Source of the DNA: Actinomycetota bacterium
Lineage (GTDB): Bacteria > Actinomycetota > Thermoleophilia > Solirubrobacterales > 70-9
Assembly: GCA_018268675.1 (NCBI GenBank)
Contig: JAFDWB010000077.1
Location: 62,001 to 126,000 of the forward strand
DNA length: 64,000 nt
Reading direction: 5' to 3'
Part shown: positions 5,596 through 31,988 of the stretch, piece after piece
How the letters are laid out: each line of letters begins with the position of its first letter
How positions within the stretch are numbered: position 1 is the stretch's first letter
Made by a program: the position numbers and the translations under genes
The notes under the pieces: model-generated
Told to the model about the DNA's origin: nothing
What the model saw: the letters and a program-made list of their open reading frames with translations, nothing else
Database searches by the model: none

Positions 5596-5617
5596 TCCGA
5601 CCGACCCAGGAGTCACC

Positions 5618-6520: not shown

Positions 6521-6522
6521 GC

Positions 6523-7419: not shown

Positions 7420-7459
7420 CTTCCCGGCGGCATGGGCCGGGGATTGGCTGGACTGTCAT

Positions 7460-7492: not shown

Positions 7493-7516
7493 AGAATCAA
7501 CCTCTCCCTTCCCAGT

Positions 7517-7548
7517 GTCACGCGACGGGGTTGAATCCGTCGCGTGAC
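7517..7548 (+). other. Strong hairpin in the 353-base gap after folD
   Basis: A 12-base-pair stem (GTCACGCGACGG paired with CCGTCGCGTGAC) closes an 8-base loop. There is no U-run after it, so it is not a textbook intrinsic terminator. It lies downstream of the 7460 promoter, about 225 bases before the next start codon, and could be a folD terminator-like element or part of a regulatory leader. The rest of the gap 7549-7760 shows no gene or recognisable riboswitch. Confidence 0.6.
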
Positions 7549-7772
7549 CCTCACTCATTCAATGGGAGGTCCGGAGAAATCGAAAACCGTGTCGCATCGA
7601 TACTCCAGGGATGTAGCACTCCGTGAGGACTCCGGGGCGTTGATCAAGGCGAGTCTGACAGTTGTGAATCGTCGGAACGATGTTCTAGGACCGGGGCCGC
7701 AGAAATCGCGATATCCGCCCCGTCGAGCTCAAAGTCGATTGACACTGCAATTAAGTCGCAAAGGAGGATCCG

Positions 7773-8987
7773 ATGCCTGAGAGTGCCGAGATAGTCGTAA
7801 TCGGTGGAGGAATCGTTGGAGTCTGCACGGCATTGGAGCTTTGTCGGGCCGGCGCAAAAGACGTAGTGGTCTTGGATCGTGGCGAGCCAGGGGCAGCGAC
7901 GACCCAGGCGGGTGCGGGGTTCCTAGATCTCTGGGCAACCACGCAGGCCGGTGCGGAGCAGGAGGTCACGGTTGAGGAATACAGCGCCGACTTCTATGCC
8001 GAACTTGGCGCGCAGCATGACATCGACTACGTCCAGCGTGGCAACCTTTGGCTCGCACTGAGCGAGAAGGCTTGGGAGAAGAAACTGAGGCCTCTGCTTG
8101 AGCATCCCGCCACGTCCGGGGCGGAACGACTCACACCGAAGGAAGCCGCCGAGATCTGCGCGGTCGTGGAGGCCCAAGGACTATTTACTGCCGTCTACCA
8201 GCCGCGCGCGGCGCACATCTCGACGGCAGCCGCAGCGAAGGCGGTCGTCAAGGAAATCGAGACGTCGGGTGGTCGATTCGTCGGCAATCGCGAGGTAACC
8301 GGCATCGAGGTTGTCGGCGAACGGATCGCAGGAGTGACGACCTCCGCCGGAAGAATCAGAACCAATGCTGTCGTGGTGGCGGCCGGAGCATGGACCAATG
8401 CGGTCCTCGAGTCGGTAGGGGTCTGGGTTCCGATGGTCTCCCTGGCGGCAACCCGCTTCCTGACCGAGCCAGCGTCGATCCCAGTCGATATGCCGGGCGT
8501 ATTGGCCCCGGAGATGAGTGACCTTTATGTGCGTGAGTACGGCGGTGCCCTCTCGTGGGGGTGCCTTTACGAGTCTTCGCCCCGCTATGACTTCTCTTCT
8601 GGCTCGCCTTCAGCTCTAGACGGACCCAGCCCCAGCGGAGAAGCCGAGATGCTCTCTATCGCCGGTCAGTTAGGGGAAACGATTCCCTTGCTCGGGGTAC
8701 TTCCGCGAGTCGCCACGTTCACAGGATTTCCAGCACACACCCCGGACTACCGTGCGGTCATCGGACCTGTCACGGGCGTCGAAGGCCTTTGGCTTGCGGC
8801 TGGGGACAACTACGCCGGTGTCACCCACGGTCCCGGTTTCGGACGTCTTCTTGCCGATCGCATCATGGAACGTTCGTCCATCGCCGATGTCGAGCCATTT
8901 TCACTGGATCGCTTCGCCAAGGGGCTCTACTCCTCCAGCGCAGACGTACTTGCTGCACCGCTGGTGCAGTCCGCGGGGTGGGAGTGA
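7773..8987 (+). CDS. FAD-dependent amino acid / amine oxidoreductase (DadA/glycine oxidase family)
   Basis: A 404-residue DAO-fold enzyme with N-terminal EIVVIGGGIVGVCTALEL (FAD site, residues 6-23), a mid-protein RTNAVVVAAGAWTN segment and C-terminal GLWLAAGDNYAGVTHGPGFGRLLAD. The family removes hydride from the alpha carbon of amino acids or secondary amines to give an imine, which hydrolyses. The ATG has an excellent ribosome site (AAAGGAGG, 7760-7767). It is controlled by the 7460 promoter/operator, which places it in the same regulon as the iol-like operon. The substrate is unknown; its neighbours suggest an amine- or N-methyl-bearing compound. Base composition is visibly lower in GC than the flanking sox operon. 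Confidence 0.85.
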   Translation: MPESAEIVVIGGGIVGVCTALELCRAGAKDVVVLDRGEPGAATTQAGAGFLDLWATTQAGAEQEVTVEEYSADFYAELGAQHDIDYVQRGNLWLALSEKAWEKKLRPLLEHPATSGAERLTPKEAAEICAVVEAQGLFTAVYQPRAAHISTAAAAKAVVKEIETSGGRFVGNREVTGIEVVGERIAGVTTSAGRIRTNAVVVAAGAWTNAVLESVGVWVPMVSLAATRFLTEPASIPVDMPGVLAPEMSDLYVREYGGALSWGCLYESSPRYDFSSGSPSALDGPSPSGEAEMLSIAGQLGETIPLLGVLPRVATFTGFPAHTPDYRAVIGPVTGVEGLWLAAGDNYAGVTHGPGFGRLLADRIMERSSIADVEPFSLDRFAKGLYSSSADVLAAPLVQSAGWE

Positions 8988-8993: not shown

Positions 8994-9881
8994 CTAGCGG
9001 ACAAAAAGGTTCGTCGGACGTCCCGGCGTCACCCCTTCGATCGCGAGGAGTGAGCCAGCGAGGCTCTCTACGGCTAGCTGCTCAGGCGAAAGACGGTGTC
9101 GCGCGGAGGTCAGGTAGAGAACATCGAGATCGGCTCCGCCGAACCCGGGGCAGGTCGGGTTTGTCACTGGTAATGAAATGACGGTGTCGAGTTCAGCATC
9201 CGGGGTGTAGCGGTGGATCGCGCCGCCGCCGAATAGGGCCACCCAGATGCAACCTTCGGCGTCGACGGTCATCCCGTCCGGCAGACCGTCCGCTTCGGCG
9301 ACCTCAATAAATGGACGACGCTCCTCGATCTCTCCGCTCAGGGGATCGAAGTCAAAGACATCGATGCGCTGGGTCGTACTGTCGATGAAGTACATCAGCT
9401 GGCCCGAGGCGTTCCACGCAAGTCCGTTAGAGATGGTGGTGCCGTCGATAACCTTCGTCAGCTCACCATCTGGATCGAGGCGGTAGAGCGCCGCCTCCCC
9501 CGCTCGCCGCTGACGCGACATCGTTCCCGCCCAGAGGCGCCCTTGCGGATCGCAACGACAGTCGTTGAAGCGGTTCTCCTCGATGTGGGTCTCGACCTCG
9601 GCGAGCACGGTCTGCGCACCATCCTCGGACCTCAGGAGGAGCCGATGCTCCACGGCGAGGACGAATCCGCCGTCCCGACAGGGGACTGCTGCGCTTACTT
9701 CGCCGTCGGTCGAGAATGTCTCGCGCTCGCTGCTCCCGGGCCGCCAGAGGTGTACCAGGCCCGCTGTGATGTCGACGGTGATCAGGTGGCCGGAGCGCGG
9801 GTCCCAGGTGGTGCCCTCACCGAGGTGGTCAGGGTCTCGGCGAGCGATGCTAAGTGAATGCCTAAACTCTTGAGGGTACAT
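8994..9881 (-). CDS. SMP-30/gluconolactonase family protein
   Basis: A 295-residue six-bladed propeller protein: it has LGEGTTWDPRSGHLITVDI (residues 21-39), the ENRFNDCRCDPQGRLWAGTM segment with Asn/Asp metal ligands, ISNGLAWN, and DGMTVDAEGCIWVALFGGG. The family hydrolyses sugar lactones with a divalent metal in its central channel. The ATG at 9881 is only four bases from the operator at 9885-9897 and has no visible ribosome site, so the mRNA may be leaderless. It converges on the FAD oxidase (6 bases between the stop codons) and diverges from the SDR. A lactonase fits oxidation of a cyclic polyol or sugar by one of the dehydrogenases here. Confidence 0.88.
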   Translation of the reverse strand: MYPQEFRHSLSIARRDPDHLGEGTTWDPRSGHLITVDITAGLVHLWRPGSSERETFSTDGEVSAAVPCRDGGFVLAVEHRLLLRSEDGAQTVLAEVETHIEENRFNDCRCDPQGRLWAGTMSRQRRAGEAALYRLDPDGELTKVIDGTTISNGLAWNASGQLMYFIDSTTQRIDVFDFDPLSGEIEERRPFIEVAEADGLPDGMTVDAEGCIWVALFGGGAIHRYTPDAELDTVISLPVTNPTCPGFGGADLDVLYLTSARHRLSPEQLAVESLAGSLLAIEGVTPGRPTNLFVR

Positions 9882-9918: not shown

Positions 9919-10689
9919 TTGGAAGGGCTTAGGGAACAAATCGCGATCGTGACGGGTGGGTCCAGAGGCATCGGCCGGGCGATCGTCGAAACACTCGCAG
10001 CCGCGGGCGCGAACGTCATCTTCTGCGGACGCGACGCGACGGCAGGGCGGGATGCGGAGGCCGATCTGGCGGCGGTGGGCGAGGTTGGCTTCGTCACCGC
10101 CGACGTTTCATCGGAGACCGATTTGATCGGCGTCGTCGAGGCCTGTCGGGAGCGCTACGGCGTGCCTACGATCCTTGTCAACAACGCCGGGGTGAACGCC
10201 AACTTCGACGCGGTGGAGATGACCGAGTCGGAGTGGGACGCCTTCTTCGACATCGACCTGAAGGCCGCCTGGCTCGGTGCCAAACACGTCCTGGCGGGGA
10301 TGCAGGAGGCTGGCCGCGGCTCGATCGTGAACATCTCGTCGCTCCATGGCTTCGTGACCTTGGAGGGCTTCTTCCCCTATGCAGCGGCGAAGTCTGGGCT
10401 GGTCGGCCTGACCCGGAGCCTCGCTCTCGACTACGGACGCTTCGGCGTTCGGGTCAACTGCGTCGCCCCTGGGTTCATCAGGACGCGACTTGTACAGGAA
10501 AGCATCGACCGATCCGATGACCGCGAGGCGGCTGAGCAGGCGATGATCAAAGGGGTGGCGCTGGGCCGGATCGGCGATCCGATGGAGGTGGCCCGAACGG
10601 TCTGTTTCCTCGCCTCGTCGGAGAGCAGCTACGTCACCGGGGCATCCCTGCTCGTCGACGGCGGCCTAACCGCCCGTCGGGCGGGATAG
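9919..10689 (+). CDS. Short-chain dehydrogenase/reductase
   Basis: A 256-residue classical SDR with the NAD(P) motif VTGGSRGIG (residues 11-19), NNAGVNA, the catalytic serine in NISSLHG and the YAAAKSG tyrosine/lysine pair. It would oxidise a hydroxyl group or reduce a ketone in the pathway. The start is a TTG at 9919 behind a strong purine run (GAGGGGGGAG, 9907-9916); no better start precedes the Rossmann fold. It begins 21 bases after the operator at 9885-9897 and is followed 28 bases later by the GntR regulator, probably in one transcript. The exact substrate cannot be read from the sequence. Confidence 0.9.
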   Translation: MEGLREQIAIVTGGSRGIGRAIVETLAAAGANVIFCGRDATAGRDAEADLAAVGEVGFVTADVSSETDLIGVVEACRERYGVPTILVNNAGVNANFDAVEMTESEWDAFFDIDLKAAWLGAKHVLAGMQEAGRGSIVNISSLHGFVTLEGFFPYAAAKSGLVGLTRSLALDYGRFGVRVNCVAPGFIRTRLVQESIDRSDDREAAEQAMIKGVALGRIGDPMEVARTVCFLASSESSYVTGASLLVDGGLTARRAG

Positions 10690-10717: not shown

Positions 10718-11467
10718 ATGGCACGCAAGCACCGAGACGTATTAAGGATCCTGACCGCCGACATCGTCGCGGGCGTTCGGCCGACGGGCGAGATGCTGCC
10801 GAAAGAGGTAGATCTGGCCGGGGAGTTCGACGTCAGCCGGGGCGTCGCGCGAGAGACGATCCGGGCAATGGAGGAACGCGGTCTGATCACCGTCAAACAC
10901 GGGAAAGGCGCCACGGTCAATCCGCCCGAGTCATGGGATGTCTTCGATGCCGACGTGCTCGCCGCCACGCTGGAGACCGATCAGGGCGTCGAGGTGCTGA
11001 AGGAGTACCTCGAATGCCGGCGGATCCTCGAGGTCGAGGCGGCGGGACTGGCCGCCGAGCGGGCGACGAAGGCGGATCTCGAACGGCTGGCGGAGGCGAT
11101 GGGTCGGATGGAGGAGACCACGGCTCGGCCACCCGGCCATGCGGCCGAGGAGCTCTTCCATGAAGCCGACATCGCCTTCCACCAGGCGCTGATCGCCGCC
11201 ACCGGGAATCGTCCGCTGGCGAGCCTGGTCGAGCGCCTCCACTCGGCCCTTCTGGTGGCCCGGTATCCACTGGCCCGCCCGCAGTACCGGCTCGAGCGGG
11301 CGCTGCCCGAGCATCGGCGGATCTTCGACGCCATCTCTGCGGGCAACGAGAGGAAGGCGCGCGCGGCGATGAGCGACCATCTGGACACGGTCGGAGGCTA
11401 CCTCGACGAATATCGCCGGGGCCAGGGTCGCCGCCGCCGTCCCACTGTTGCTGCTGCGGGCCGCTGA
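10718..11467 (+). CDS. GntR-family transcriptional regulator with FCD domain
   Basis: A 249-residue regulator. Residues 5-68 form a GntR winged helix (LRILTADIVAGVRPTGEMLPKE...VSRGVARETIRAMEERGLITVKHGKGATV). Residues 90-230 form an FCD all-helical effector domain with the metal-binding Asp/His set in EADIAFHQALIAATGNRPL, LPEHRRIFDAI and MSDHLD. FCD regulators usually bind short palindromes and release DNA when an organic acid or sugar acid binds. It is the only catabolic-type regulator inside the cluster and so the best candidate for the six GTGAT-NNN-ATCAC sites. A degraded site (TCATCTAATGG, 10711-10721) overlaps its own start codon. Confidence 0.92.
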   Translation: MARKHRDVLRILTADIVAGVRPTGEMLPKEVDLAGEFDVSRGVARETIRAMEERGLITVKHGKGATVNPPESWDVFDADVLAATLETDQGVEVLKEYLECRRILEVEAAGLAAERATKADLERLAEAMGRMEETTARPPGHAAEELFHEADIAFHQALIAATGNRPLASLVERLHSALLVARYPLARPQYRLERALPEHRRIFDAISAGNERKARAAMSDHLDTVGGYLDEYRRGQGRRRRPTVAAAGR

Positions 11468-11527: not shown

Positions 11528-11561
11528 TTGCAATTCAAGTCATGTAGTGATTAGATCACTA
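11528..11561 (+). promoter_or_regulatory. Promoter with perfect operator before the nine-gene operon
   Basis: The -35 is TTGCAA (11528-11533), the spacer 17 bases and the -10 TTAGAT (11551-11556). The -10 is inside a 17-base palindrome, TAGTGAT-TAG-ATCACTA (11545-11561), the best copy in the window. The next gene's ATG begins at 11563, which is about where transcription should start, so this promoter probably makes a leaderless mRNA and is repressed when the palindrome is occupied. Confidence 0.75.
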
Positions 11562-11562
11562 T

Positions 11563-12612
11563 ATGTCCTCGGTCGAGATTTCCTCGGCTGGGCGTCGCGG
11601 GACCCGGGAGGTCCTCGTCACCTGGCCGGACTACGACGTCGATGGTGACGGCCTCGGAGCCTCGCTGGCGCAAGCCGGTCTGGCTGTGCGGCTGGAGCCG
11701 AAACGGGGCGCCCGGACTACCGCCGACATGCGTGGCTTCCTGACGGGTGTCGCTGCGGCGATCGTCAGCACCGACCCTTTCGACGCCGATCTCCTCGCCG
11801 ATTGCCGCGACCTGCGGGTGATCGCCCGGGTCGGGGTGGGGGTCGACTCGATCGATATCGACGCGGCGACGAAGTGTGGGGTGGCGGTCACCGTCACCCC
11901 CGGTGCCAACGAGGAGACGGTCGCCGACCACACCGTTGCGCTGATGCTTGCCGCGCTGCGTCGAATCTGTGAGCACGACGCCGGCGTGCGCCGCGGGGAG
12001 TGGAACCGGACCGGCGGCCACACCCCTTGGACCCTCCACGGCGCCACCGTCGGTCTGATCGGATTCGGCCGGATCGGTCGGCTCGTCGCCCGCCGCCTGC
12101 GTGGCTTCGACGTCGAGATACTGGTCGCCGACCCCGCCGCCACCTCTTCCAGTGAAGGCGTCGCGGTTCCGCTCGAGACGCTCCTTCGGCGCGCCACCGT
12201 CGTCTCGCTCCATGCTCCACTTCTTCCTCAGACCCACCACCTGATCGGTAGCGAACAGTTCGCCTTGATGCGACCCGAGGCCATTCTCGTAAACACCGCC
12301 CGCGGGCCGATCGTCGATGAAGCGGCGTTGCTCGCGGCCCTGGAGCAAGGGCGGATACAAGGCGCCGCGCTAGACGTCTTCGAGAGCGAGCCACCACGCC
12401 TGGACGACCTCGGTGCACGGCCGGACGTGGTCCTCAGTCCACACAACGCCGGCCTCAGCGTCGAATCGGTGGGCGAGATGACGCGCCGGGCGACGGCCTC
12501 GGTGATCGACGTCCTCTCCGGTCGCCGCCCCGCGGACCTCGCCAATCCAGAGGTGCTTGGGTCGATCGGCCTCGCCGAGCTCGGGTCCGACGGAGCGGGG
12601 ATCCATGGTTGA
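11563..12612 (+). CDS. D-isomer-specific 2-hydroxyacid dehydrogenase
   Basis: A 349-residue NAD-dependent dehydrogenase of the PGDH/FDH family. It has the NAD motif GLIGFGRIGRLVARRL (near residues 165-180) and the catalytic triad in NTARGPIVDE (Arg), DVFESEPP (Glu) and LSPHNAGLS (His). It would interconvert a 2-hydroxy and a 2-keto acid. The ATG at 11563 is one base after the operator palindrome; no other usual start exists before the first beta strand (EVLVTWPDYD), so the start is firm although there is no ribosome binding site. It is the first gene of a nine-gene operon and overlaps the aldolase by eight bases. Confidence 0.9.
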   Translation: MSSVEISSAGRRGTREVLVTWPDYDVDGDGLGASLAQAGLAVRLEPKRGARTTADMRGFLTGVAAAIVSTDPFDADLLADCRDLRVIARVGVGVDSIDIDAATKCGVAVTVTPGANEETVADHTVALMLAALRRICEHDAGVRRGEWNRTGGHTPWTLHGATVGLIGFGRIGRLVARRLRGFDVEILVADPAATSSSEGVAVPLETLLRRATVVSLHAPLLPQTHHLIGSEQFALMRPEAILVNTARGPIVDEAALLAALEQGRIQGAALDVFESEPPRLDDLGARPDVVLSPHNAGLSVESVGEMTRRATASVIDVLSGRRPADLANPEVLGSIGLAELGSDGAGIHG

Positions 12613-13375
12613 CCGGCTCCCCGACAAGCTCGCCGCGGGTCGCCGCCTGAGCGGTACGGTCCTCACCCTTCCCGGTCCCGCGGTCGCGGAGTTGCTCGCC
12701 GAGCCGTTCGACCTCGTCTGGATCGACCTCGAGCATGCGGCGCTCGGTCCGCGCGATGCCCAGGAGATGATCATCGGCGCACAGGCCGCCGGCGCGCTCG
12801 CCTTGGTGCGCCTGCCCGCCGATGCACATGGTCTCATCACGATGGTGCTCGACGCTGGGGCCGACGGGCTCGTGATCGCCGACGTCCGCGGTCCGGCCGA
12901 CGTGACGACGGCCGTCGCCCAGGCGACACACCCGCCAGCAGGTAGTCGAGGGTGGGGACCACGGCGTCTTGCTCTACGCAATCGCACCGCTGGCGCGCGC
13001 CCGGGCGCGCCTTCGATCTGGATCCAGATCGAGAGCCGGATAGCGGTCGAGCGGATCGCCGAGATCGTCGCCACGCCGGGCATCGAGGCGGTCTGCGTGG
13101 GCACCGCCGATCTCTCCTTCTCGCTCGGGGCGCCCCTGGACATGGCGGCCCCAGACCTTCTCGATGCACTCGAGCAGGTGGCGCAGGCCTGCGCCGACCA
13201 TGACGTCCACTTCGCCCTCGCGGGCAGCCTCGAGGCGGCTCCGACCGCGGCACTGCAGCGCGCCGCCGCCTTGATCCACGGGACCGACGCCAAGCTATGC
13301 GCCCAGGCGGTCGATTCGGCCGCGGCCTGGATGCGCGGAATCCTCGAACCAGAACAGGAGTCGTTCGGACGATGA
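12605..13375 (+). CDS. HpcH/HpaI family class II aldolase
   Basis: A 256-residue TIM-barrel aldolase of the 2,4-dihydroxyhept-2-ene-1,7-dioate aldolase family. Visible residues are the WIDLEHAALGPRDAQ motif (catalytic His), LVRLPA (substrate Arg), QIES (metal Glu) and VGTADLSFSLG (metal Asp). The enzymes split 4-hydroxy-2-keto acids, usually releasing pyruvate or another short keto acid. In this operon it could replace the IolC/IolJ kinase-aldolase half of inositol catabolism by cleaving an unphosphorylated intermediate; that is inference. The ATG at 12605 overlaps the previous gene, and its end overlaps the HisD-like gene by four bases. Confidence 0.9.
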   Translation: MVDRLPDKLAAGRRLSGTVLTLPGPAVAELLAEPFDLVWIDLEHAALGPRDAQEMIIGAQAAGALALVRLPADAHGLITMVLDAGADGLVIADVRGPADVTTAVAQATHPPAGSRGWGPRRLALRNRTAGARPGAPSIWIQIESRIAVERIAEIVATPGIEAVCVGTADLSFSLGAPLDMAAPDLLDALEQVAQACADHDVHFALAGSLEAAPTAALQRAAALIHGTDAKLCAQAVDSAAAWMRGILEPEQESFGR

Positions 13376-14661
13376 CCGAGTACCTCAAGCAGGCCCCGAT
13401 CTACAGCGCCCAGGTGACCGAAGACGTGCGGCGCACCGTGAGCGAGATGCTGAGCCGGATCGAACGCGAGGGGGAGATGGCGATCCGTGCCTACTCTCGC
13501 GAACTCGACGATTGGGATCCGCCCTCCTTCGTCGTCGGCGAAGACCAGATCCGGGAGGCCGAACGCGGGATCGACACCGAGCTCGCCGAACACGTCGCAT
13601 TCGCCCAGGCCCAGGTGCGCCGCTTCGCCACGGCTCAGCGCGAGTCGATGTCAGAGCTCGAGGTCGAAACGCTGCCCGGCGTGACGCTCGGCCACCGTCA
13701 CATCCCCGTGCAAACGGTCGGCTCCTACGTGCCCGGCGGCCGGTATCCGATGCTCGCCTCGGCCTTCATGACCGTCATCGTCCCCAAGGTCGCGGGGGTC
13801 GAGCGTGTGATCGCCTGCGCCCCGCCGCAGCGCAATCAGGGCATCCACCCGGTGATGTTGTACACGATGGCCACCTCCGGCGCTGACCATGTTATCTGTC
13901 TCGGCGGGGTGCAGGGGCTCGCTGCGATGGCCTTTGGGATCGAGGATCTTGAGCCCGCCGACATGATCGTCGGCGCCGGGAACGCGTACGTGGCCGAGGC
14001 GAAGCGGCAGCTTTTCGGCGAGGTCGGGATCGACCTGCTCGCCGGACCGACGGAGGTGGCGATCATCGCCGACGCCACCGCCGACGCCGAACTCGTCGCC
14101 GCCGATCTTCTCGGCCAGGCCGAGCACGGACCGACCTCTCCTGCGGTGCTTATCACCACCGATCGTGGCCTCGGCGAGGAGGTCATGGTGCAGGTCGACC
14201 GCCTGCTCGAGACGTGGCCGACCAGTGAGGTTGCTGGCGCGGCCTGGAAGGCGCACGGCTCGATTGCCGTCGTCGCCGATCGCTCCGCTGCCGTCGCCCT
14301 CTCCGACCAGATCGCGCCGGAGCACCTTGAGGTCCAAGTCGAGGAAGAGGAGTTGGACGACTATCTAGCCGAGCTGAAGAACTACGGCTCGCTGTTCCTC
14401 GGGCGACAGGCGACGGTGGCCTACGGCGACAAGGCCGTCGGCACCAACCACGTCCTACCGACGATGCGCGCCGCCCGCTACACCGGCGGCCTCTGGGTTG
14501 GCAAGTTCCTCAAGACCTGCACCTACCAGCGCCTGACCGAGGAGGGTACGCAGCGCGTCGCCCCGGCGGTGGCGGCGATCTCTCGCGCCGAGCATTTCGA
14601 GGGCCACGGACTGACCGCGACGATGCGCCTCGATCGGATCGAGACCGAGGTGGCGTCGTGA
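13372..14661 (+). CDS. HisD-like zinc NAD dehydrogenase (catabolic paralogue, HpsN-like)
   Basis: A 429-residue member of the histidinol dehydrogenase superfamily. The zinc and catalytic residues are present: Gln and His in GQAEHGP, the Glu-His pair in QIAPEHLEV, Asp in AYGDKAVGTNH and His in EGHGLTATMR. It lies in a catabolic operon with no other his gene, so it is not the biosynthetic HisD. Known catabolic paralogues such as HpsN oxidise a primary alcohol in two steps to a carboxylate. Here a cyclitol- or sugar-derived alcohol is more likely than a sulfonate because no sulfonate-cleaving gene is nearby. The ATG overlaps the aldolase stop by four bases. Confidence 0.88.
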   Translation: MTEYLKQAPIYSAQVTEDVRRTVSEMLSRIEREGEMAIRAYSRELDDWDPPSFVVGEDQIREAERGIDTELAEHVAFAQAQVRRFATAQRESMSELEVETLPGVTLGHRHIPVQTVGSYVPGGRYPMLASAFMTVIVPKVAGVERVIACAPPQRNQGIHPVMLYTMATSGADHVICLGGVQGLAAMAFGIEDLEPADMIVGAGNAYVAEAKRQLFGEVGIDLLAGPTEVAIIADATADAELVAADLLGQAEHGPTSPAVLITTDRGLGEEVMVQVDRLLETWPTSEVAGAAWKAHGSIAVVADRSAAVALSDQIAPEHLEVQVEEEELDDYLAELKNYGSLFLGRQATVAYGDKAVGTNHVLPTMRAARYTGGLWVGKFLKTCTYQRLTEEGTQRVAPAVAAISRAEHFEGHGLTATMRLDRIETEVAS

Positions 14662-15422
14662 GCTTCGGCGACTCCGATTTCCGGCTCGAGGACCGGACGA
14701 TCGCAGTGGTCGGCGCCGGCCGCGGCATCGGCGCCGGGGTTGCGGAGGCATGCGCCGCAGCGGGGGCGGAGCGGGTGGTCCTGCTAGGGCGGACCCAAAG
14801 CGATCTAGCTGCGGTCGCCGAGACGGTCGCCGAGCGGGGATCCGAGGCGCAGATCGCCGTTTGCGACGTCACCTCGACCGAATCGATCGTCAGCGCTTTC
14901 GAACAGTTCGAGCGGGTCGACGTGCTCGTCGAGGCGGCGGGCGCAAATCAGCCAGAGCCGTTTGTCGACGTCGACGAGGAAACCTTCGACCGCCTATTCG
15001 CCCTTAACGTGAGAGGCGTGTTCTTCACCGTACAGGCAGCGGTCAAGAAGATGCTCGCCGCCCAGCGCGGCGGCGTGGTCGTCATCGTCTCCTCGCAGAT
15101 GGGTCACGTCGGTGCCGCCAGCCGGAGCGTCTATTGCGCGAGCAAGCATGCGCTGGAGGGGCTTACGAAGGCGCTCGGCGTGGAGCTGGCCGTCGCCGGG
15201 ATCCGGGTCGTCACGGTCGCCCCGACCTTCGTCCGCACGGCGATGACCGCCGCGCAGCTGGACGATCCGGAGATCGGCGCCGAGCTTCTCGCCCAGATCC
15301 CACGGGGACGGTTTGGCGAGGTCGACGAGGTGGCTCGTGCGGTCGTTCTCGCCGCCTCCCCGGCGGCGTCGTTGATGACCGGCTCCAGCCTGATCCTCGA
15401 TGGGGGGTGGACCGCCCGATGA
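14658..15422 (+). CDS. Short-chain dehydrogenase/reductase
   Basis: A 254-residue classical SDR: IAVVGAGRGIGAGVAEA (cofactor site, residues 15-31), NVRGVFF, catalytic serine in VIVSSQMGH, and YCASKHALEG with the Tyr/Lys pair. It should act on a hydroxyl or ketone of the pathway intermediate, together with the HisD-like enzyme. The GTG start overlaps the previous stop (GTGA), and the next gene's ATG overlaps its own TGA. Cofactor preference is not clear. It is related only distantly to the SDR at 9919. Confidence 0.9.
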   Translation: MSFGDSDFRLEDRTIAVVGAGRGIGAGVAEACAAAGAERVVLLGRTQSDLAAVAETVAERGSEAQIAVCDVTSTESIVSAFEQFERVDVLVEAAGANQPEPFVDVDEETFDRLFALNVRGVFFTVQAAVKKMLAAQRGGVVVIVSSQMGHVGAASRSVYCASKHALEGLTKALGVELAVAGIRVVTVAPTFVRTAMTAAQLDDPEIGAELLAQIPRGRFGEVDEVARAVVLAASPAASLMTGSSLILDGGWTAR

Positions 15423-17332
15423 CGGACTCGACGGTCCGCCTGACGACGGCCCAGGCCCTGGTCCGCTTCCTGCAGGTCCAGTTCTCCGAGCGCGACGGCC
15501 AGACGCAACGGGCGATCCCGGCGATTTTCGGCATCTTCGGCCACGGCAACGTCCTCGGCGTCGGCCAGGCCGTCCAGCAGGAGGGGGCGGAGCTGCCGCT
15601 CTTCCAGCCGAAGAACGAGCAGTCGATGGTCCACACCGCCCTCGGCTACGCCAAGGCCAGCCGCCGCCTGGCGACGTTCGCCTGCTCGGCATCGATCGGG
15701 CCGGGTTCGACCAACCTCCTGACCGGTGCGGCGACCGCCACCACCAACCGGCTGCCGGTGCTCCTCCTGCCCAGCGACACCTTCGCTGGCCGGCGCCAGG
15801 GCGTCGTCCTGCAGCAGCTCGAGGGCGGCACGAGCGCGGACGAGTCGGTCAACGATGCCTTTCGCCCGCTGAGTCGCTTCTTCGATCGCGTCTCGCGGCC
15901 CGAGCAACTGCTGACCGCGCTGCCGCAGGCGATGCGGGTCCTCCTCGACCCGGCGGAGACGGGCGCGGTGACGATCTCGCTGCACCAAGATGTCCAGGGC
16001 GAGGCCTTCGACTTTCCTCGCGCCTTCTTCGAGCCGCGGACCTGGTCGGTCACCCGCCGCCCTCCTGCGGAGGCGGAGCTGGCCGCCGCGGTGCAGCTGA
16101 TCGAAGGTGCCCGGCGTCCGCTGATCATCGCCGGTGGCGGGGTCCGTTACTCGGCGGCCGAGGAGGCCCTGCACCGATTCGCCGAGCGTCACCAGATCCC
16201 GGTTGCTGAGACGTCGGCCGGCAAGGGTGCGCTCGCGGACTCGGAGGTGCTGCTTGGCGGAGTCGGCGTGAACGGGACCCCCGCTGCGGCGCGGATCGCC
16301 AATGAGTCCGATCTGGTCCTCTGCATCGGCACCAGGCTGAGCGACTTCACCACCGGATCCCAGTCGCTGTTCCAGGATCCGGAGGTCCGCTTCGTCGGTC
16401 TGAATGCCAATGCCACCGACGCTTACAAGCTCTCGGCGACGCCGCTGGTCGCCGACGCCCGCGCCGGAATCGAGGCGCTGGACGAGGCGCTAGGCGGCTG
16501 GCGCGCCGGGCCCGAGCAGTCGACCGAAGCAAGGGCGGCGACCGCGAGCTGGCGCGAGGAGCTTGGCGCACATCTCGCCGAAGACCCGAGCAAGGACGGG
16601 GCGATGCTCCAGGCCCAGGTACTGAAGGTGATCAACGACGAGACGCGGGCGGGGGACTGGGTCGTCGCCGCGGCGGGCTGGCAGCCCGGCGACCTGCTGA
16701 AGATGTGGGAGACGCCGCCGGGCAGCTTCACCCACATCGAGTTCGCCTTCTCCTGCATGGGTCATGAGATCCCCGCCGGGCTCGGCATCCGCCTGCGCGA
16801 GGGCGCCGATGGCGAGGTCTTCGTCGTGATCGGTGACGGGACCTACCTGATGCAGCCGACCGAGCTGGCCACGGCGGTGCAGGAGGGGCTGAAGCTGACC
16901 GTGGTCGTGCTCGACAACGGCGGCTACCAGTCGATCAACGCGCTCGCGGTCGGCAACACGGGGACCGGCGCCGGCAACGAGTTCCGCCGGCGCAGCGACG
17001 ACGGCAGACTGCCGACCGGTGAGCCGTTTGCGGTCGACTTCGTCGGCAACGCGGCCAGCATGGGCTGTCGCGCCGCGGCCGCCGGGTCGGCGGACGAGCT
17101 GGCCGCGGCCCTGCGCGAGGCGCGCGGAGGTGGGGAGACCACGGTGATCGTATGCAACACCCGCGGCGACGGCGCGCTGCCGCCGAGCGGGGTCTTCTGG
17201 GACCTCGGGGTACCCGAGATCGCGACCTCGGCGGAGACCGCGAAGCTGAGCGAGGAGCACCGCGCGCGCCGCGCCGCGCAGCGCAGTTACCTGCATCCAC
17301 CCCACGATCCGAAAGGAGGTCAGCACCGATGA
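15419..17332 (+). CDS. iolD: IolD-like ThDP-dependent trihydroxycyclohexanedione hydrolase
   Basis: A 637-residue thiamine-diphosphate enzyme of the usual IolD length. It opens with VRLTTAQALVRFLQVQFSERDG and FGIFGHGNV, has the ThDP-activating Glu67 in KNEQSMVHTALGYAK, and the cofactor motif GDGTYLM...LDNGGYQSIN (from residue 472). IolD hydrolyses the ring of 3D-(3,5/4)-trihydroxycyclohexane-1,2-dione to 5-deoxy-glucuronate, the ring-opening step of myo-inositol catabolism. Its presence is the strongest clue that the operon handles a cyclohexane polyol. The sequence differs from standard IolD around the cofactor motif, so the diketone substrate may be a variant. A ribosome site for the next gene (AAAGGAGGT) lies in its last codons. 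Confidence 0.82.
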   Translation: MTDSTVRLTTAQALVRFLQVQFSERDGQTQRAIPAIFGIFGHGNVLGVGQAVQQEGAELPLFQPKNEQSMVHTALGYAKASRRLATFACSASIGPGSTNLLTGAATATTNRLPVLLLPSDTFAGRRQGVVLQQLEGGTSADESVNDAFRPLSRFFDRVSRPEQLLTALPQAMRVLLDPAETGAVTISLHQDVQGEAFDFPRAFFEPRTWSVTRRPPAEAELAAAVQLIEGARRPLIIAGGGVRYSAAEEALHRFAERHQIPVAETSAGKGALADSEVLLGGVGVNGTPAAARIANESDLVLCIGTRLSDFTTGSQSLFQDPEVRFVGLNANATDAYKLSATPLVADARAGIEALDEALGGWRAGPEQSTEARAATASWREELGAHLAEDPSKDGAMLQAQVLKVINDETRAGDWVVAAAGWQPGDLLKMWETPPGSFTHIEFAFSCMGHEIPAGLGIRLREGADGEVFVVIGDGTYLMQPTELATAVQEGLKLTVVVLDNGGYQSINALAVGNTGTGAGNEFRRRSDDGRLPTGEPFAVDFVGNAASMGCRAAAAGSADELAAALREARGGGETTVIVCNTRGDGALPPSGVFWDLGVPEIATSAETAKLSEEHRARRAAQRSYLHPPHDPKGGQHR

Positions 17333-18213
17333 GGCTCGCCACCGGACCGGTGACCTGGGGCGTCGACTTCGCCGACGCCCCGAACAATCCGCCCTGGGGG
17401 CAAGTGCTCGACGAGATCGCGAGCTCCTCGCTCGACGCGCTTGAGCTCGGCCCGGTCGGCTACCTGCCCGAGGAGCCGGCGGCGCTCCGCGACGCGCTCG
17501 ACTCGCGTTCGCTCACCGCGGTCGGCTCGTTCATCTTCGACGACCTTCACGACCCGGCCGAGCTGGAGCGGGTGCTGGCGGCGGCGGAACGCGCTTCGGC
17601 GGCGATCGCGGCGGCGGGTGGCTCGGTGCTCGTGATCATCGACAGGCCCTCCGAGGAACGGGTGGCCACCGCCGGTCGCTCGGAGGCCGCACCGCGCCTC
17701 TCCCCGGCCCGATGGGCCGAGATGCTCGATGCGATCCGCGCGGTCGCCGAGACCGCCCGCGAGAATGGGCTGCGGCCGGCCGTCCACCCCCACGCGGGCG
17801 GCTACCTCGAGTTCGAGGACGAGCTGGAGCGCCTCCTCGCCGACACAGACCTCGATCTCTGTCTCGACACCGGGCACCTCGCCTATGCGGGCATCGACCC
17901 CGAGGCGGCGCTCGCCGACCACGCGGGGCGCCTGGTCCACCTCCACCTCAAGGACATCGACCGCGAGGTCATCGCCGACGTCCGCACCCGCGGCCTGACC
18001 TTTTGGCAGGCGATCGAGGCGGGTGTGTTCTGCCCGCTCGGTCAGGGCGTCGTCGACCTCGACGCGGTGCTGGCGACCCTCGAGCGGTGCGGGTACGACG
18101 GATTCGCGACGATCGAGCAGGACCGGGTGCCCGGCGTCGGGTCGCCGCTGGGTGATCTTGAGGCGAGCGTAGAGGTGATCGAGGCGGCGACGCGGCGGAG
18201 GTCCGGCCTTTGA
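17329..18213 (+). CDS. IolE-like sugar phosphate isomerase/epimerase TIM barrel
   Basis: A 294-residue xylose-isomerase-like TIM barrel. It starts ATGPVTWGVDFADAPNNPPWG and has the metal-binding segments AVHPHAGGYLEFEDEL, LCLDTGHLAYAGIDP and LVHLHLKDID, very like inosose dehydratase IolE, which removes water from 2-keto-myo-inositol. In the expected order Gfo/Idh oxidation, IolE dehydration, IolD hydrolysis, it supplies the middle step. Because the barrel family also includes epimerases and C-glycoside-cleaving enzymes, the exact reaction is open. The ATG is preceded by AAAGGAGGT in the end of iolD, and its stop overlaps the TTG of the next gene. Confidence 0.85.
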   Translation: MRLATGPVTWGVDFADAPNNPPWGQVLDEIASSSLDALELGPVGYLPEEPAALRDALDSRSLTAVGSFIFDDLHDPAELERVLAAAERASAAIAAAGGSVLVIIDRPSEERVATAGRSEAAPRLSPARWAEMLDAIRAVAETARENGLRPAVHPHAGGYLEFEDELERLLADTDLDLCLDTGHLAYAGIDPEAALADHAGRLVHLHLKDIDREVIADVRTRGLTFWQAIEAGVFCPLGQGVVDLDAVLATLERCGYDGFATIEQDRVPGVGSPLGDLEASVEVIEAATRRRSGL

Positions 18214-19325
18214 GCCAGGCGGAGACAACCCGCCGGATCGGCGTCGCCCTGCTCGGCAGCTCCTTCATGGGTCGGGCCCACTCACGCGGCCTCGACGCGG
18301 TCCGCACGCTCGAGGATCACCCGGCCGCCGTCCCGGCGCTTCGGGCGATCTGTGGCCGCGATCAGAAGAAGCTCGACGGCATGCGCGACCGCTACGGCTG
18401 GGAGCGGACGAGCACCGACTGGCGGGCGCTGGTCGAGGATCCGGAGATCGAGGTTTTCGACAACGCGGCGAGCAACCACCTGCACGCCGAGCCGACGATC
18501 GCCGCGGCGCGGGCAGGCAAGCACGTGATCTGCGAGAAGCCGCTCGGTCGCGACGCGGCCGAGACGCGGAAGATGTTGGAGGCGGTCGAGACCGCTGGCG
18601 TACTGCACATGTGCGCCTTCAACTACCGGTTCCTCCCCGCCATCCGATTCGCCAGGGAACTGATCGAGCGCGGCGACATCGGGGCGCCGCGCCAGTTCCG
18701 CTCGCGGTTCCTGCTCGGCTCGGGCGCCGTTCCCGGCGAGGCCGAGACCGCCTGGCGCCTGCGGCGCGAGACCGCAGGCAGCGGCGTCGTCGGCGATCTG
18801 CTCGCCCATCACGTCGACGTTGCCCGTTACCTGGTCGGCGAGTTCACGGCGGTCGGTGGCGCGACCCGGACCTGGGGGCCGCAGCGCGCCGGGGTCGAGG
18901 TCGACGTCGAGGATGCGGTGGTCGCCACGGTCGAGTTTGCGAGCGGCGCGATCGGCACGATGGAGGCGGCGCGGGTCCTTCCCGGGCAGGTGCTGGAGAG
19001 CGCGGTGGCGATCGACGGCTCGGAAGGCTCGGTCACCTTCGACGTCCGCTCGCCGAACGAGTTGACCTTCGCCGACGCACGGGGGTCGACTACGATCAGC
19101 GTCACCGCGCCCGAGCATCCGTTCGCCGAGCTGTGGTGGCCGCGCGGGCACGGGATCGGCTGGGGAGACAGCTTCAGCCATGAGCTGCGGCACTTCCTCG
19201 GTGCCGTCGCCGGGGCGTGGGAGGTCGCGCCCCACGGAGCGACGTTCCTCGACGGGTTGCGCTGCGCCGAGGTCTGCGACGCGGTTCTCGCCGCTGCGAC
19301 CTCGGGCCACCGCACGGAAATTTGA
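18210..19325 (+). CDS. Gfo/Idh/MocA family oxidoreductase (first copy)
   Basis: A 371-residue NAD(P) dehydrogenase. The N-terminal Rossmann fold reads IGVALLGSSFMGRAHSRGL; the EKPLGRD motif carries the catalytic lysine of the family, and a C-terminal alpha/beta domain (GDLLAHHVDVARYLVGEF) supplies the catalytic Asp/His region. Family members, including inositol 2-dehydrogenase IolG, oxidise a ring hydroxyl to a ketone. The start is TTG at 18210, overlapping the previous TGA; there is no closer ATG. It is followed 32 bases later by a second member of the same family, which suggests two ring oxidations or interconversion of two isomers. Confidence 0.88.
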   Translation: MSQAETTRRIGVALLGSSFMGRAHSRGLDAVRTLEDHPAAVPALRAICGRDQKKLDGMRDRYGWERTSTDWRALVEDPEIEVFDNAASNHLHAEPTIAAARAGKHVICEKPLGRDAAETRKMLEAVETAGVLHMCAFNYRFLPAIRFARELIERGDIGAPRQFRSRFLLGSGAVPGEAETAWRLRRETAGSGVVGDLLAHHVDVARYLVGEFTAVGGATRTWGPQRAGVEVDVEDAVVATVEFASGAIGTMEAARVLPGQVLESAVAIDGSEGSVTFDVRSPNELTFADARGSTTISVTAPEHPFAELWWPRGHGIGWGDSFSHELRHFLGAVAGAWEVAPHGATFLDGLRCAEVCDAVLAAATSGHRTEI

Positions 19326-19357
19326 CACCCAGCAGAAGAAGAACGGAGGAGGAGTAG

Positions 19358-20470
19358 ATGACGCGCTCGGGGAAGGTCCGGGTCGGGATCGTCGGCGCCG
19401 GCTACATCGCCCAGGTCCACAGCGCCGGGTACCGCTCGGTGGTCGGGACCTACGATGACGGGCCGGAGGGGGTCGACCTCGCGGTGGTCGCCGACGGCGC
19501 GGAGAATCGCGCCCAGGAGCTCTCCCGCGCGTGGGGCTGGGAGCGGGTCGAGACCGACTGGCGCCAGGTTACCCGGGCCGACGACGTCGACGTGGTCGAC
19601 GTCTCCGTCCCGAACGTCCTCCACGCCGAGATCGCGATCGACGCACTCGAGCACGGCAAGCACGTGATCTGCGAGAAGCCGCTTGCCCACGATCTGGAGA
19701 GCGCACTAGCGATGGCCGCGGTGGCGGAGCGCAGCGGCCGGCTCGCCCAGGTCTGCTTCTACTACCGCCTGTGGCCGGCGATCGCCTGGGCCCGGCAGCT
19801 GGTCGACGAAGGGGCCGTCGGCCGCCCGCAGCACTTCCGCGGCTGGCTTCTGCAGGACTATGCCGCCGACGCCGCCCTCGACCTCGGCTGGCGCGCCCGA
19901 CCGGCCGACGCCGGAGCCGGCGCGCTGGGTGACCTCGGCTCGCACATCATCGATATCGCCCGTCACCTCTGCGGCGACATCAGCCGGCTCTGCGCCAACT
20001 CGAGGACGATCGTCGATCGCCCGGGCGACACGAAGATCGACGATCTGATCTCGATCATGGTCGAGTTCGACAGCGCCGCCGGCGGCGTGCTGGAGGCAAG
20101 CTGGGCGCTCCGCGGCCACAAATGCGACCTCGGCTTCGACCTCGTCGGCGACGGCGGCGCGATCCGCTTCTCGTGGGAGCGCTCGAACGAGATCGAGGTC
20201 CTGCAGGGCGATCCCGCCGACCCGGCGAACGGCTTCCGGCGCGTCCTGATCGGCGGTGCCCAGCCCGATGTCTCGCGCTTCGTCGCCGTCTCCGGGCAGG
20301 GGGTCGGTTACCGCGACGCGTTCACGATCGGGCTCGGCCACGCCCTGCGCGGGATCGCCCGCGGCGATGCGGCCACTGAGCCGTCCTTCGCCGACGGCGC
20401 CGAGGTGAGCAGGGTGGTGGCTGCCGCCCTCGACTCGGCCGAGAGCGGCCGCTGGACCGCGGTGTCATGA
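19358..20470 (+). CDS. Gfo/Idh/MocA family oxidoreductase (second copy)
   Basis: A 370-residue dehydrogenase with VRVGIVGAGYIAQVHSAGY at the N-terminus, the catalytic EKPLAHD motif, and GALGDLGSHIIDIARHLCGD in the substrate domain. It is clearly paralogous to the preceding gene in fold but not a recent duplication. IolG/IolX/IolW-type activity on an inositol isomer or a keto-inositol is likely. It has its own ribosome site (ACGGAGGAG before ATG 19358), the only gap in this operon larger than a few bases, and ends in an overlap with the VOC gene. Confidence 0.88.
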   Translation: MTRSGKVRVGIVGAGYIAQVHSAGYRSVVGTYDDGPEGVDLAVVADGAENRAQELSRAWGWERVETDWRQVTRADDVDVVDVSVPNVLHAEIAIDALEHGKHVICEKPLAHDLESALAMAAVAERSGRLAQVCFYYRLWPAIAWARQLVDEGAVGRPQHFRGWLLQDYAADAALDLGWRARPADAGAGALGDLGSHIIDIARHLCGDISRLCANSRTIVDRPGDTKIDDLISIMVEFDSAAGGVLEASWALRGHKCDLGFDLVGDGGAIRFSWERSNEIEVLQGDPADPANGFRRVLIGGAQPDVSRFVAVSGQGVGYRDAFTIGLGHALRGIARGDAATEPSFADGAEVSRVVAAALDSAESGRWTAVS

Positions 20471-20961
20471 GCGGCGCGGTCCGCCTCGGCCACGTCGGGA
20501 TCACCGTGCCCGACGTCGATGCTGCAGCGACCTGGTACTCGCAGGTTTTCGGGTGGCCACTCCTGATGGGGCCGGTCGACGTTTCAAGCGCTCAGCCAGG
20601 TATGGCCGAGCAGCTGCGCCAGGTATTCGGCGAGGGGGACGTCGCCTTCCGCCAGGCCCACCTGGCGCTGCCGGGCGAGGTGACGCTAGAGCTGTTCGAG
20701 TTCCCGGCGCCGCGACCGGAGGCCGGGGGGCTCGATTTCCGTCGGATCGGTGTCTCCCATCTTTCCGTCGTCGTCGTCGAGATCGAGCGGACGGCGGAAC
20801 GGATCGCGGCGGCGGGCGGCACCCGGCGGACCGAGGTGTTGCCGATCTTCCCCGGCGAGCACTTTCTCTTCTGCTATTGCGGCGACCCGTTCGGCAACGC
20901 GATCGAGCTGACCACGCACCCGCACTCGGAGACGTTTAAGGGTCGCACTTCCTACACGTGA
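20467..20961 (+). CDS. VOC superfamily protein (glyoxalase/dioxygenase fold)
   Basis: A 164-residue protein with two beta-alpha-beta-beta-beta modules: LGHVGITVPDVDAAATWYSQVFGW at the start and ISHLSVVVVEIERTAERIAAAGG-like second half ending in YCGDPFGNAIELTTH. Metal-ligand positions (His in GHVGI, Glu in TLELFEF, His in VSHLSVV, Glu in AIELTTH) are all present, so it can bind a metal ion. VOC enzymes include epimerases, lyases and dioxygenases; the reaction here is unknown. It closes the nine-gene operon, and its stop is four bases before the next operator. Confidence 0.8.
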   Translation: MSGAVRLGHVGITVPDVDAAATWYSQVFGWPLLMGPVDVSSAQPGMAEQLRQVFGEGDVAFRQAHLALPGEVTLELFEFPAPRPEAGGLDFRRIGVSHLSVVVVEIERTAERIAAAGGTRRTEVLPIFPGEHFLFCYCGDPFGNAIELTTHPHSETFKGRTSYT

Positions 20962-20965
20962 TGTA

Positions 20966-20978
20966 ATGATATAATCAC
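20966..20978 (+). promoter_or_regulatory. Operator/-10 region before the GMC oxidoreductase
   Basis: ATGATATAATCAC matches the palindrome (TGAT-ATA-ATCA) and contains a perfect -10, TATAAT (20970-20975). The upstream sequence has no clear -35 at 17 bases. Transcription would begin near 20982, giving a leader of about 27 bases with GAAAGGAG before the ATG at 21009. Confidence 0.65.
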
Positions 20979-21008
20979 TAGCCACCTGGGGGACTGAAAG
21001 GAGAAACG

Positions 21009-22562
21009 ATGAGCGGCCAGGACCTGAGCGCAGACGTGATCATCATCGGTAGCGGTGCCGGCGCTGGGACGATGGCCTACGCCCTCAAAGACTCGGGTCT
21101 CGAGGTGTTGATCCTCGAGCGTGGTGACTTCCTGCCCGTCGAGGCGCAGAACTGGTCACCGGAGGACACGGTGGCTAAGTCCCGCTACAAGCCTGACGAG
21201 TACTGGGAACACAAGGGCAAGCGCTACCGCGGCTCGAACCATTACTACGTCGGCGGCATGACCAAGATGTTCGGCGCATGCTTGGCGCGTATGCGACCCT
21301 CCGATTTCGAAGAGTATGGTCTCGACGAGGGCCCATCGCCCGCCTGGCCAATCAGCTACGAGGATCTCGAGCCCTACTATGCGGCGGCTGAGAAGATTTG
21401 GGGCGTCAGGGGAAAAACGGGCGAGGATCCGATGGAACCACCTCGAAGCACACCATTTCCACATCTCGCGCTAGAGCATGAGCCGGAGGTCGAGCGTCTC
21501 GCGGCGCGCCTTCGGGATCAGGGTCTCAATCCCTACACTTTGCCGATGGGGGTCGATTATGGCGATGGCGGGGGCTGCGTGCGCTCCCGCTACTGCGATG
21601 GATTTTCCTGCCCATTGCACGCAAAGTGCGATGCAGACGTTCGATGCGTCAGGCCTGCGCTTGAGAGTCCGACCGTATCCATAGTTACCAACTGTCAGGC
21701 CGAGCGCTTGCTGACCGACCGCACCGGGAAGAGGGTTGTGGCCGTCGAGGTAAGACACCGAGGGGAGTTGAAGAAGGCGTCCGCGGATGCTTTCGTCGTC
21801 GGCGCGGGGGCGGCCAACAGTGCCGCACTCTTTCTACGGTCTGCTTCGAGTAGCCATCCGCTGGGGCTTGCGAACTCCTCAGATCAGCTGGGCAGGAACT
21901 ACATCCAGCACCGAGATTCTGCGTTGTCAGGGGTCGACCCGAGGCGACCCAACGAAACCTCGTTCCAAAAGACCCTCGGTCTTAACGACTTCTACCTCAG
22001 CGAGACGGGCGCGCATCGGCGGCTGGGCTCGCTTCAGACGACTGGGAAGGTGCTCCACGAGCACATCACCGGTTCCCTCCCTTGGGTTCCCAAATGGTTT
22101 GCTGAACGGGTGGCCTCCCGCTCGATCGACTGGTGGCTGATGACGGAGGATTGTCCACTCGAATCGAACCGTGTGGTGCTCTCTCCAGGCGGGGGGATCC
22201 GCTTGGAGTGGCAGCCCACGAGCATTCGCCGGCATCGCGAGCTGGTGAGAGAGGCGCGAAAGATGATGAGGCGTGCCGGTTACCCGCTGGTTGTCTGGAA
22301 ACACTTCGGCCTTGAGACGAATGCCCATCAGTCAGGAACCATGAGGATGGGAGCGGATCCAGACACTTCTGTTCTGGATCCATATTGCAGACCGCACGAG
22401 TTGGAAAACGTACACGTCGTGGACGCCGCCTTCCTGCCTTCATTGGGCGGCGGACCTGGCGGCCCAACCCTTACGATCGCCGCAATGGCGCTTCGCGTCG
22501 CGGAGAATTCGGAAATCCTGCCGAAAGTTAGGCCCGCCGACCGACTTCTGGAGAAAGAATGA
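21009..22562 (+). CDS. GMC family FAD oxidoreductase
   Basis: A 517-residue glucose-methanol-choline oxidoreductase of the bacterial sugar/polyol dehydrogenase branch. It has ADVIIIGSGAGAGTMAYAL (FAD site, residues 8-26), VGGMTKMFGA, and the C-terminal NAHQSGTMRMG with the catalytic His. The second catalytic position, normally Asn or His just before PTLTI, is Gly here (GGPGGPTLTIAAMA). The family oxidises an alcohol of a sugar, cyclitol or glycoside. It begins a two-gene unit with the cupin (ATGA overlap) under the 20966 operator. GC content falls visibly from this gene onward. Partner cytochrome or hitchhiker genes are not seen. Confidence 0.88.
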   Translation: MSGQDLSADVIIIGSGAGAGTMAYALKDSGLEVLILERGDFLPVEAQNWSPEDTVAKSRYKPDEYWEHKGKRYRGSNHYYVGGMTKMFGACLARMRPSDFEEYGLDEGPSPAWPISYEDLEPYYAAAEKIWGVRGKTGEDPMEPPRSTPFPHLALEHEPEVERLAARLRDQGLNPYTLPMGVDYGDGGGCVRSRYCDGFSCPLHAKCDADVRCVRPALESPTVSIVTNCQAERLLTDRTGKRVVAVEVRHRGELKKASADAFVVGAGAANSAALFLRSASSSHPLGLANSSDQLGRNYIQHRDSALSGVDPRRPNETSFQKTLGLNDFYLSETGAHRRLGSLQTTGKVLHEHITGSLPWVPKWFAERVASRSIDWWLMTEDCPLESNRVVLSPGGGIRLEWQPTSIRRHRELVREARKMMRRAGYPLVVWKHFGLETNAHQSGTMRMGADPDTSVLDPYCRPHELENVHVVDAAFLPSLGGGPGGPTLTIAAMALRVAENSEILPKVRPADRLLEKE

Positions 22563-22978
22563 GCCGGACGCCATCAACGTCACCCATAAAGTTGCCGGCA
22601 TCGGCAGCACGTCGTCGAATCGAGACGAATGACCGGGGGTTTGAGATCGGGGTGCTGGTCGACGCAGAGGTCCAGGGTTCGCCTCTCGTATTTGCGCTTG
22701 CCTGGATCAGACCGTCTACCGAACGCGTAAGCTGGACCGCAGACGATCACACCCACGAGACGTACTACGTCAAGAACGGCACGCTCCGCGTTACCTGGGA
22801 CGGGACCGACGCGGGCGCCGCGACGCTCGGACCGTCCGATTCGTTTTATTTTCCGCCCGGGCGGACCTATAGCGCCGAAAACGTAGGCGACGATGATGTA
22901 GCGCTCGTGTGGGCAATGACGCCCTCGCCAGCGACCTTCGCGCCATCGCCTTCTCGCGGGGTTGACCGCGCAGTCTGA
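22559..22978 (+). CDS. Small cupin-domain protein
   Basis: A 139-residue single-domain cupin. Residues 60-125 carry the fold: HTHETYYVKNGTLRVTW (first cupin motif with His/His/Glu), then SDSFYFPPGRTYSAENVGDDDVALVWAM (second motif, with the usual His replaced). Possible roles are isomerisation, ring or lactone handling, or ligand sensing. It overlaps the GMC gene by four bases and so should be made with it. The 409-base gap that follows (22979-23387) has no credible gene; it contains only the permease promoter near its right end. Confidence 0.75.
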   Translation: MSRTPSTSPIKLPASAARRRIETNDRGFEIGVLVDAEVQGSPLVFALAWIRPSTERVSWTADDHTHETYYVKNGTLRVTWDGTDAGAATLGPSDSFYFPPGRTYSAENVGDDDVALVWAMTPSPATFAPSPSRGVDRAV

Positions 22979-31938: not shown

Positions 31939-31988
31939 GCGCCAGGCCAATTCAATCCAGGCACCACGAGCGCATGAGCAGAAGTTAA

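Follow-up and report, generated by a model that had tools for sequence, protein, structure and literature searches.

A conserved gene cluster that may catabolise inositol-type cyclitols without a kinase

The 64,000-nucleotide stretch of DNA analysed here (the window; positions 62,001 to 126,000 of contig JAFDWB010000077.1, from an actinomycetotal bacterium of the order Solirubrobacterales) contains a single operon of nine plus-strand genes at positions 11563-20961, each of which overlaps the next at the stop/start junction, apart from the two Gfo/Idh genes, which are separated by 32 bp. Pfam and NCBIfam profiles assigned the products, in order, to a D-2-hydroxyacid dehydrogenase (DHD, 11563-12612), an HpcH/HpaI class II aldolase (HpcH, 12605-13375), a HisD-like dehydrogenase (13372-14661), an SDR dehydrogenase (SDR2, 14658-15422), the thiamine diphosphate (ThDP)-dependent cyclic dione hydrolase IolD (15419-17332), an IolE-like TIM-barrel protein that is a putative inosose dehydratase (17329-18213), two Gfo/Idh/MocA dehydrogenases (GFO1, 18210-19325, and GFO2, 19358-20470) and a VOC protein (20467-20961). 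The first-pass annotation had described IolD-like, IolE-like and two IolG-like genes coupled in one operon with an HpcH/HpaI aldolase, a D-2-hydroxyacid dehydrogenase, a HisD-like dehydrogenase, an SDR and a VOC protein, and this description was confirmed in full. Upstream of the operon are genes for an SMP-30/gluconolactonase-family protein and putative lactonase (8994-9881, minus strand; Pfam SGL, 276 bits), a further SDR dehydrogenase (SDR1, 9919-10689, plus strand) and a transcriptional regulator with Pfam GntR and FCD domains (10718-11467, plus strand). Downstream, also on the plus strand, are a GMC oxidoreductase resembling FAD-dependent sugar/polyol dehydrogenases (21009-22562), whose nearest relatives are FAD glucose and fructose dehydrogenases, and an overlapping gene for a small protein (22559-22978) that is cupin-like by eye and has no Pfam match at 1e-10.

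The genome that contains the window (4.2 Mb, 97% complete) was searched for the phosphorylated half of inositol catabolism. No IolB was found anywhere in it, nothing scored above the cut-off for IolC, and neither DUF2090 nor the class II fructose-bisphosphate aldolase family (the IolJ type) has a member across the whole genome. Of the marks of a canonical iol cluster, the genome thus has no IolB, no IolC above the cut-off, and neither IolJ nor DUF2090. Two dehydrogenases of the methylmalonate-semialdehyde dehydrogenase (MMSDH)/IolA type, both above the cut-off, are encoded outside the operon, and a glycerate kinase is also encoded in the genome. The earlier statement that iolB, iolC, iolJ and iolA are lacking thus holds genome-wide for the first three, whereas iolA is missing from the operon only.

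To place the operon among its relatives, IolD homologues were drawn from GTDB species genomes, from 399 genomes of the class, from 396 of the phylum and from plasmids. The maps of their loci rest on tblastn, for which the queries were the window proteins together with reference sequences of IolB, IolC and IolA that NCBIfam had identified. Of 68 IolD loci, 14 carry DHD and/or HpcH (the variant loci, window included), 47 carry IolB and/or IolC, and seven, several of them on short contigs, carry neither; none carries both (Fisher p = 9e-10, a value that is indicative only, the loci being related and not independent). DHD is present in 13 and HpcH in 12 of the 14 variant loci, SMP-30 and the GntR/FCD regulator are each present in eight, and HisD-like and SDR2 occur together in seven, with every one of these genes absent from all 47 IolB/IolC loci; SDR1 is found in nine variant loci versus 3/47. 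Among the variant loci, the GMC gene occurs in the window only. The gene set is far beyond chance, and the search of other genomes, which the first-pass annotation had proposed, showed it to recur across two phyla, in Solirubrobacterales, Dactylosporangium, a plasmid of Sinorhizobium fredii NGR234 and a Rhizobium plasmid, and thus both in further actinobacteria of soil and in root-nodule bacteria. Two types can be distinguished. Type I loci (the window, L008, L010, L022, L056-L059, NGR234 and Rhizobium) contain combinations of SMP-30, SDR, HisD-like and GntR genes, with HisD-like, SDR2 and SMP-30 restricted to this type, whereas type II loci (L060, L061, L063 and L117) have a lactaldehyde-dehydrogenase-like aldehyde dehydrogenase in place of HisD/SDR/SMP-30. 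Two of the type II loci, L060 and L063, have as neighbours a glycosidase of family GH4 and a TIM-barrel protein of another kind (AP_endonuc_2), which may be a replacement for IolE.

On pNGR234b of S. fredii NGR234 and on the conjugative Rhizobium plasmid, IolD is followed by SMP-30 (directly so in Rhizobium), and the loci also hold SDR1, Gfo/Idh genes (including, in NGR234, a homologue of GFO1), IolE-like, DHD and HpcH, with HisD and SDR2 further along, as well as sugar-type ATP-binding cassette (ABC) binding proteins and LacI regulators. The VOC gene has a counterpart at the Rhizobium locus, and the HisD/SDR2 pair of NGR234 sits near a transhydrogenase, as at other hisD-SDR loci. In the IolD tree, the 11 variant loci then known all fell within one 15-member clade (SH-aLRT 100). 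The clade is completed by two truncated loci and by L062 and L064, both of which carry IolB/IolC. The latter two represent a natural module swap, with IolB/IolC for DHD/HpcH, and have a GH4 glycosidase nearby. Because L062 and L064 share the variant IolD clade, the two modules are interchanged on one IolD lineage. This suggests that the product of ring opening is the same for both, at least in the type II lineage.

The IolD of the window scores 774 bits against the curated equivalog model TIGR04377 (cut-off 715) and retains 119 of the 126 residues that are invariant in IolB/IolC-linked IolD. Tyr453 in its SCMGYE motif is replaced by His (MGHE for MGYE), a change found in 11 of 12 type I IolD proteins, in 0/47 of those linked to IolB/IolC and in 0/4 of type II. 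Located in the ThDP-binding domain ahead of the GDG motif, this motif is matched by "MGH" in an alignment with BbmA and may be close to the substrate; the Tyr-to-His change leaves room for a non-standard cyclitol. The best solved relatives of the IolE-like protein are IolE structures, although it scores only 157 bits against TIGR04379 (cut-off 290). A new function was considered as the cause of this low score and rejected, since the IolE proteins that IolB/IolC clusters of this class encode score no higher than 112-158 bits; the low score is a lineage effect. Both Gfo/Idh proteins score below the IolG cut-off, with levoglucosan and scyllo-inositol/L-glucose dehydrogenases nearest to GFO2.

In the replacement module, the catalytic Arg/Glu/His set of DHD is conserved in the loci aligned, and its solved relatives include 2-ketogluconate and glyoxylate/hydroxypyruvate reductases. 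No second close homologue of HpcH was found in the genome. The His and Arg residues of HpcH and the Glu and Asp that bind its metal are conserved across the 12 loci aligned, and the protein is akin to solved class II aldolases that include SwHKA, in which hydroxypyruvate is metal-bound. The HisD-like protein matches the sulfopropanediol dehydrogenase HpsN with 412 bits and is more distant from histidinol dehydrogenases (266 bits). All seven HisD-like homologues, that of NGR234 included, retain the equivalents of CpHpsN Glu318, His319 and Asp352 (zinc/catalytic) and of Lys353, and all seven have Met at the position of the substrate-recognising His126 in the GRYxH motif of HpsN. Judged from these residues, the HisD-like protein is a distinct HisD subfamily.

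A palindrome, TAGTGATtagATCACTA, precedes both the operon and the next (GMC) unit and recurs at related operons. The copy directly before DHD, TAGTGATTAGATCACTA (11545-11561), is perfect and forms a putative operator of the GntR/FCD regulator, and a second, TAATGATATAATCACTA (20964-20980), has one mismatch and stands before the GMC gene, so that GMC and its small partner would belong to the same putative regulon. At up to three mismatches the window contains three matches, versus 0.24 expected, and similar palindromes precede SMP-30/SDR1, DHD, HisD-like, IolD or GntR genes in L008, L022, L010, L056 and L058. The third match in the window (31987-32003, three mismatches) lies just before an open reading frame of 489 residues without a Pfam match (32031-33500) and one of 755 residues with a bacterial Ig-like domain.

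We consider it about an even call that this conserved operon serves to break down inositol-type cyclitols without a kinase, by a route that ends in hydroxypyruvate and malonate semialdehyde. The observed basis of this view is the gene content, the genome-wide lack of the phosphorylated half, the mutual exclusion of the two modules, conservation across phyla, the intact catalytic residues and the recurring operator; the substrate and products of the route, and the sequence of its steps beyond IolD, are inferred. Within this frame the more general suggestion of the first-pass annotation, that the kinase half has been replaced and that aldol cleavage is unphosphorylated, is well supported, with the phosphorylated half lacking throughout the genome and the replacement set conserved in two phyla.

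In the proposed route, the Gfo/Idh dehydrogenases, perhaps together with GMC, would yield an inosose, which the IolE-like protein would dehydrate, and IolD would then open the cyclic dione by hydrolysis, giving 5-deoxyglucuronate or a closely similar compound. 5-Deoxyglucuronate is an α-hydroxy aldehyde and is able to cyclise, and aldehyde oxidation is the second half of HisD chemistry. Instead of isomerisation by IolB, phosphorylation by IolC and aldol cleavage to dihydroxyacetone phosphate, the aldehyde end would be oxidised to an aldarate (5-deoxyglucarate), in type I by SDR1 with the SMP-30 lactonase and/or by the HisD-like enzyme and in type II by the aldehyde dehydrogenase. The hydroxyl group beside the new carboxylate of 5-deoxyglucarate has the D configuration, as at C2 of gluconate, which fits a D-2-hydroxyacid dehydrogenase. 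DHD would accordingly be placed next, oxidising this D-2-hydroxyl to a 2-keto-3,4-dihydroxyadipate-type acid that HpcH could cleave to hydroxypyruvate and malonate semialdehyde. The former would be reduced to glycerate and then phosphorylated by the glycerate kinase encoded in the genome, and the latter converted to acetyl-CoA by the IolA/MMSDH encoded outside the operon. A precedent for the oxidation is found in glucuronate catabolism, where a uronate dehydrogenase of SDR type and a lactonase produce an aldarate (PMC9007349).

Several points weigh against this route. The replacement of Tyr453 by His in type I IolD could mean that another dione is hydrolysed; L022 has no HpcH near IolD, and in the genome of L056 (G274) the HpcH homologue is about 10 kb away; the variant loci share kinship, so that their counts are not independent; and a single oxidation would hardly seem to need both HisD-like/SDR2 and SDR1/SMP-30, so that at least one of the pairs probably does something else. 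It is possible, if clearly less probable, that type I loci target another cyclitol or a substituted one (with a hydroxymethyl, carboxy or amino group, or a different stereoisomer), with IolD opening a non-standard dione and HisD-like and SDR2 oxidising an extra primary alcohol or inverting a centre before aldol cleavage by HpcH. The distribution of the Tyr-to-His change and the confinement of HisD-like, SDR2 and SMP-30 to type I are consistent with this, as are a dehydroquinate (DHQ)-synthase-like gene and aminotransferase genes near the L057 IolD and a DegT aminotransferase in L058; however, the remainder of IolD is as conserved as the standard enzyme, the IolE-like and Gfo/Idh proteins are of inositol type, and aminotransferases are not common to most loci. 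In genome G352 (L057/L119) the type I IolD and DHD are immediately followed by the DHQ-synthase-like gene and a class III aminotransferase, an arrangement that suggests a cluster for (amino)cyclitol synthesis or breakdown. In L058 the DegT/StrS-family aminotransferase (13937-15301) is part of the variant cluster, where SDR1 and GntR flank it. With aminotransferases near L057, L058 and L023, amino- or substituted cyclitols are possible substrates for some members. A more far-reaching and likewise less probable reading is a second, kinase-free route of cyclitol catabolism shared by Actinomycetota and Rhizobiaceae plasmids, in which type I would act on a non-myo-inositol cyclitol through the altered-motif IolD and the new HisD-like enzyme, type II would use an aldehyde dehydrogenase, and in both HpcH would finally release hydroxypyruvate and malonate semialdehyde.

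The remaining explanations are much less probable. The window also contains, at 4426-8987, a neighbouring one-carbon operon for a sarcosine-oxidase-type FAD enzyme, PurU, FolD and a second FAD amine oxidase. The first-pass annotation had guessed at an amino- or N-methyl-cyclitol, from which the amine oxidase and the sarcosine/one-carbon operon would strip the N-methyl group. The two operons do adjoin in the window, but sarcosine oxidase, PurU, FolD, the amine oxidase and the APC permease occur in 0/13 other variant loci, several of which carry sugar-type ABC importers instead. Moreover, a scan of the window at up to three mismatches found no copy of the palindrome near the sarcosine oxidase operon, which therefore falls outside the putative regulon, and the guess, which we now judge improbable, was not upheld. 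Equally doubtful is an ordinary inositol pathway whose isomerase, kinase and aldolase come in trans from genes that are unrelated or were missed, with DHD and HpcH serving another pathway. In three variant genomes (G154, G308 and G372) IolB does occur elsewhere, together with a separate set of inositol genes, and at 97% completeness a small loss from the window genome is possible; against this, DHD and HpcH are coupled in the operon and absent from the IolB/IolC loci, and DUF2090 and the class II aldolase were not found in the window genome. IolB in trans was rejected, since eight variant genomes lack IolB altogether. Least probable is a sulfosugar or dihydroxypropanesulfonate (DHPS) pathway, made up of an HpsN-type HisD, an SDR, a lactonase and an HpcH aldolase, in which IolD would be a relic. 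HpsN is indeed nearest to the HisD-like protein, the combination of SDR, lactonase, aldolase and an aldehyde-oxidising enzyme recalls sulfo-Entner-Doudoroff genes, and the transhydrogenase beside the NGR234 HisD/SDR2 pair matches other hisD-SDR loci. IolD is nonetheless intact and conserved, and this candidate was rejected because the sulfonate-recognising His126 is missing from all seven HisD-like proteins.

The genes iolB, iolC, iolD and iolE are the common basis for calling inositol use, and a large survey required at least three of these four genes within 10 kb for an inositol cluster (PMC9430895); under this rule the variant would be missed and such organisms would be scored as non-users. 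Searches of open-access papers for an IolD/DHD/HpcH pathway, for fates of 5-deoxyglucuronate and for deoxyglucarate found nothing on the variant. If confirmed, the kinase-free route would be a new branch that leads on from IolD without phosphorylation, would give HpcH aldolases of the hydroxypyruvate type a natural role and would add a subfamily to HisD, and the presence of the variant set on pNGR234b makes it directly testable in a tractable symbiont.

Of the known systems, SwHKA (hydroxyketoacid aldolase, PDB 6r62) shares the class II fold and catalytic residues of HpcH and binds hydroxypyruvate, but identity to the window protein is low, and specificity for a hydroxypyruvate donor is only putative in the latter. 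HpsN, a sulfopropanediol 3-dehydrogenase, is the best solved relative of the HisD-like protein and has the same zinc/catalytic residues, and differs in the substrate-recognising His126, which is replaced by Met. Thermotoga maritima employs IolG, IolM, IolN and IolO, with hydrolysis of a diketo-inositol and epimerisation of 5-keto-L-gluconate. This pathway likewise bypasses 2-deoxy-5-ketogluconate kinase, but, unlike the route proposed for the window, is not known to involve IolD or an HpcH cleavage. The oxidative inositol pathway of T. maritima (Rodionova 2013) is cited in PMC12632266. The oxidative glucuronate pathway (uronate dehydrogenase, aldarolactonase and a GarL-type HpcH aldolase) resembles the proposed route in the use of an SDR and a lactonase to reach an aldarate, followed by a retro-aldol step of the HpcH family; in contrast, the window route would start from a ring-opened cyclitol, no aldarate dehydratase was seen, and DHD would make the 2-keto acid by oxidation. 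The canonical myo-inositol pathway (IolG-E-D-B-C-J-A) shares its upper half with the window, namely an IolD above the cut-off and IolE-like and IolG-like proteins. The window genome differs in lacking IolB, IolC, IolJ and DUF2090, in place of which DHD, HpcH, HisD-like, SDR and SMP-30 are found. The window route is expected to proceed without a phosphorylated intermediate before cleavage, with malonate semialdehyde, as in the canonical pathway, probably one of its products.

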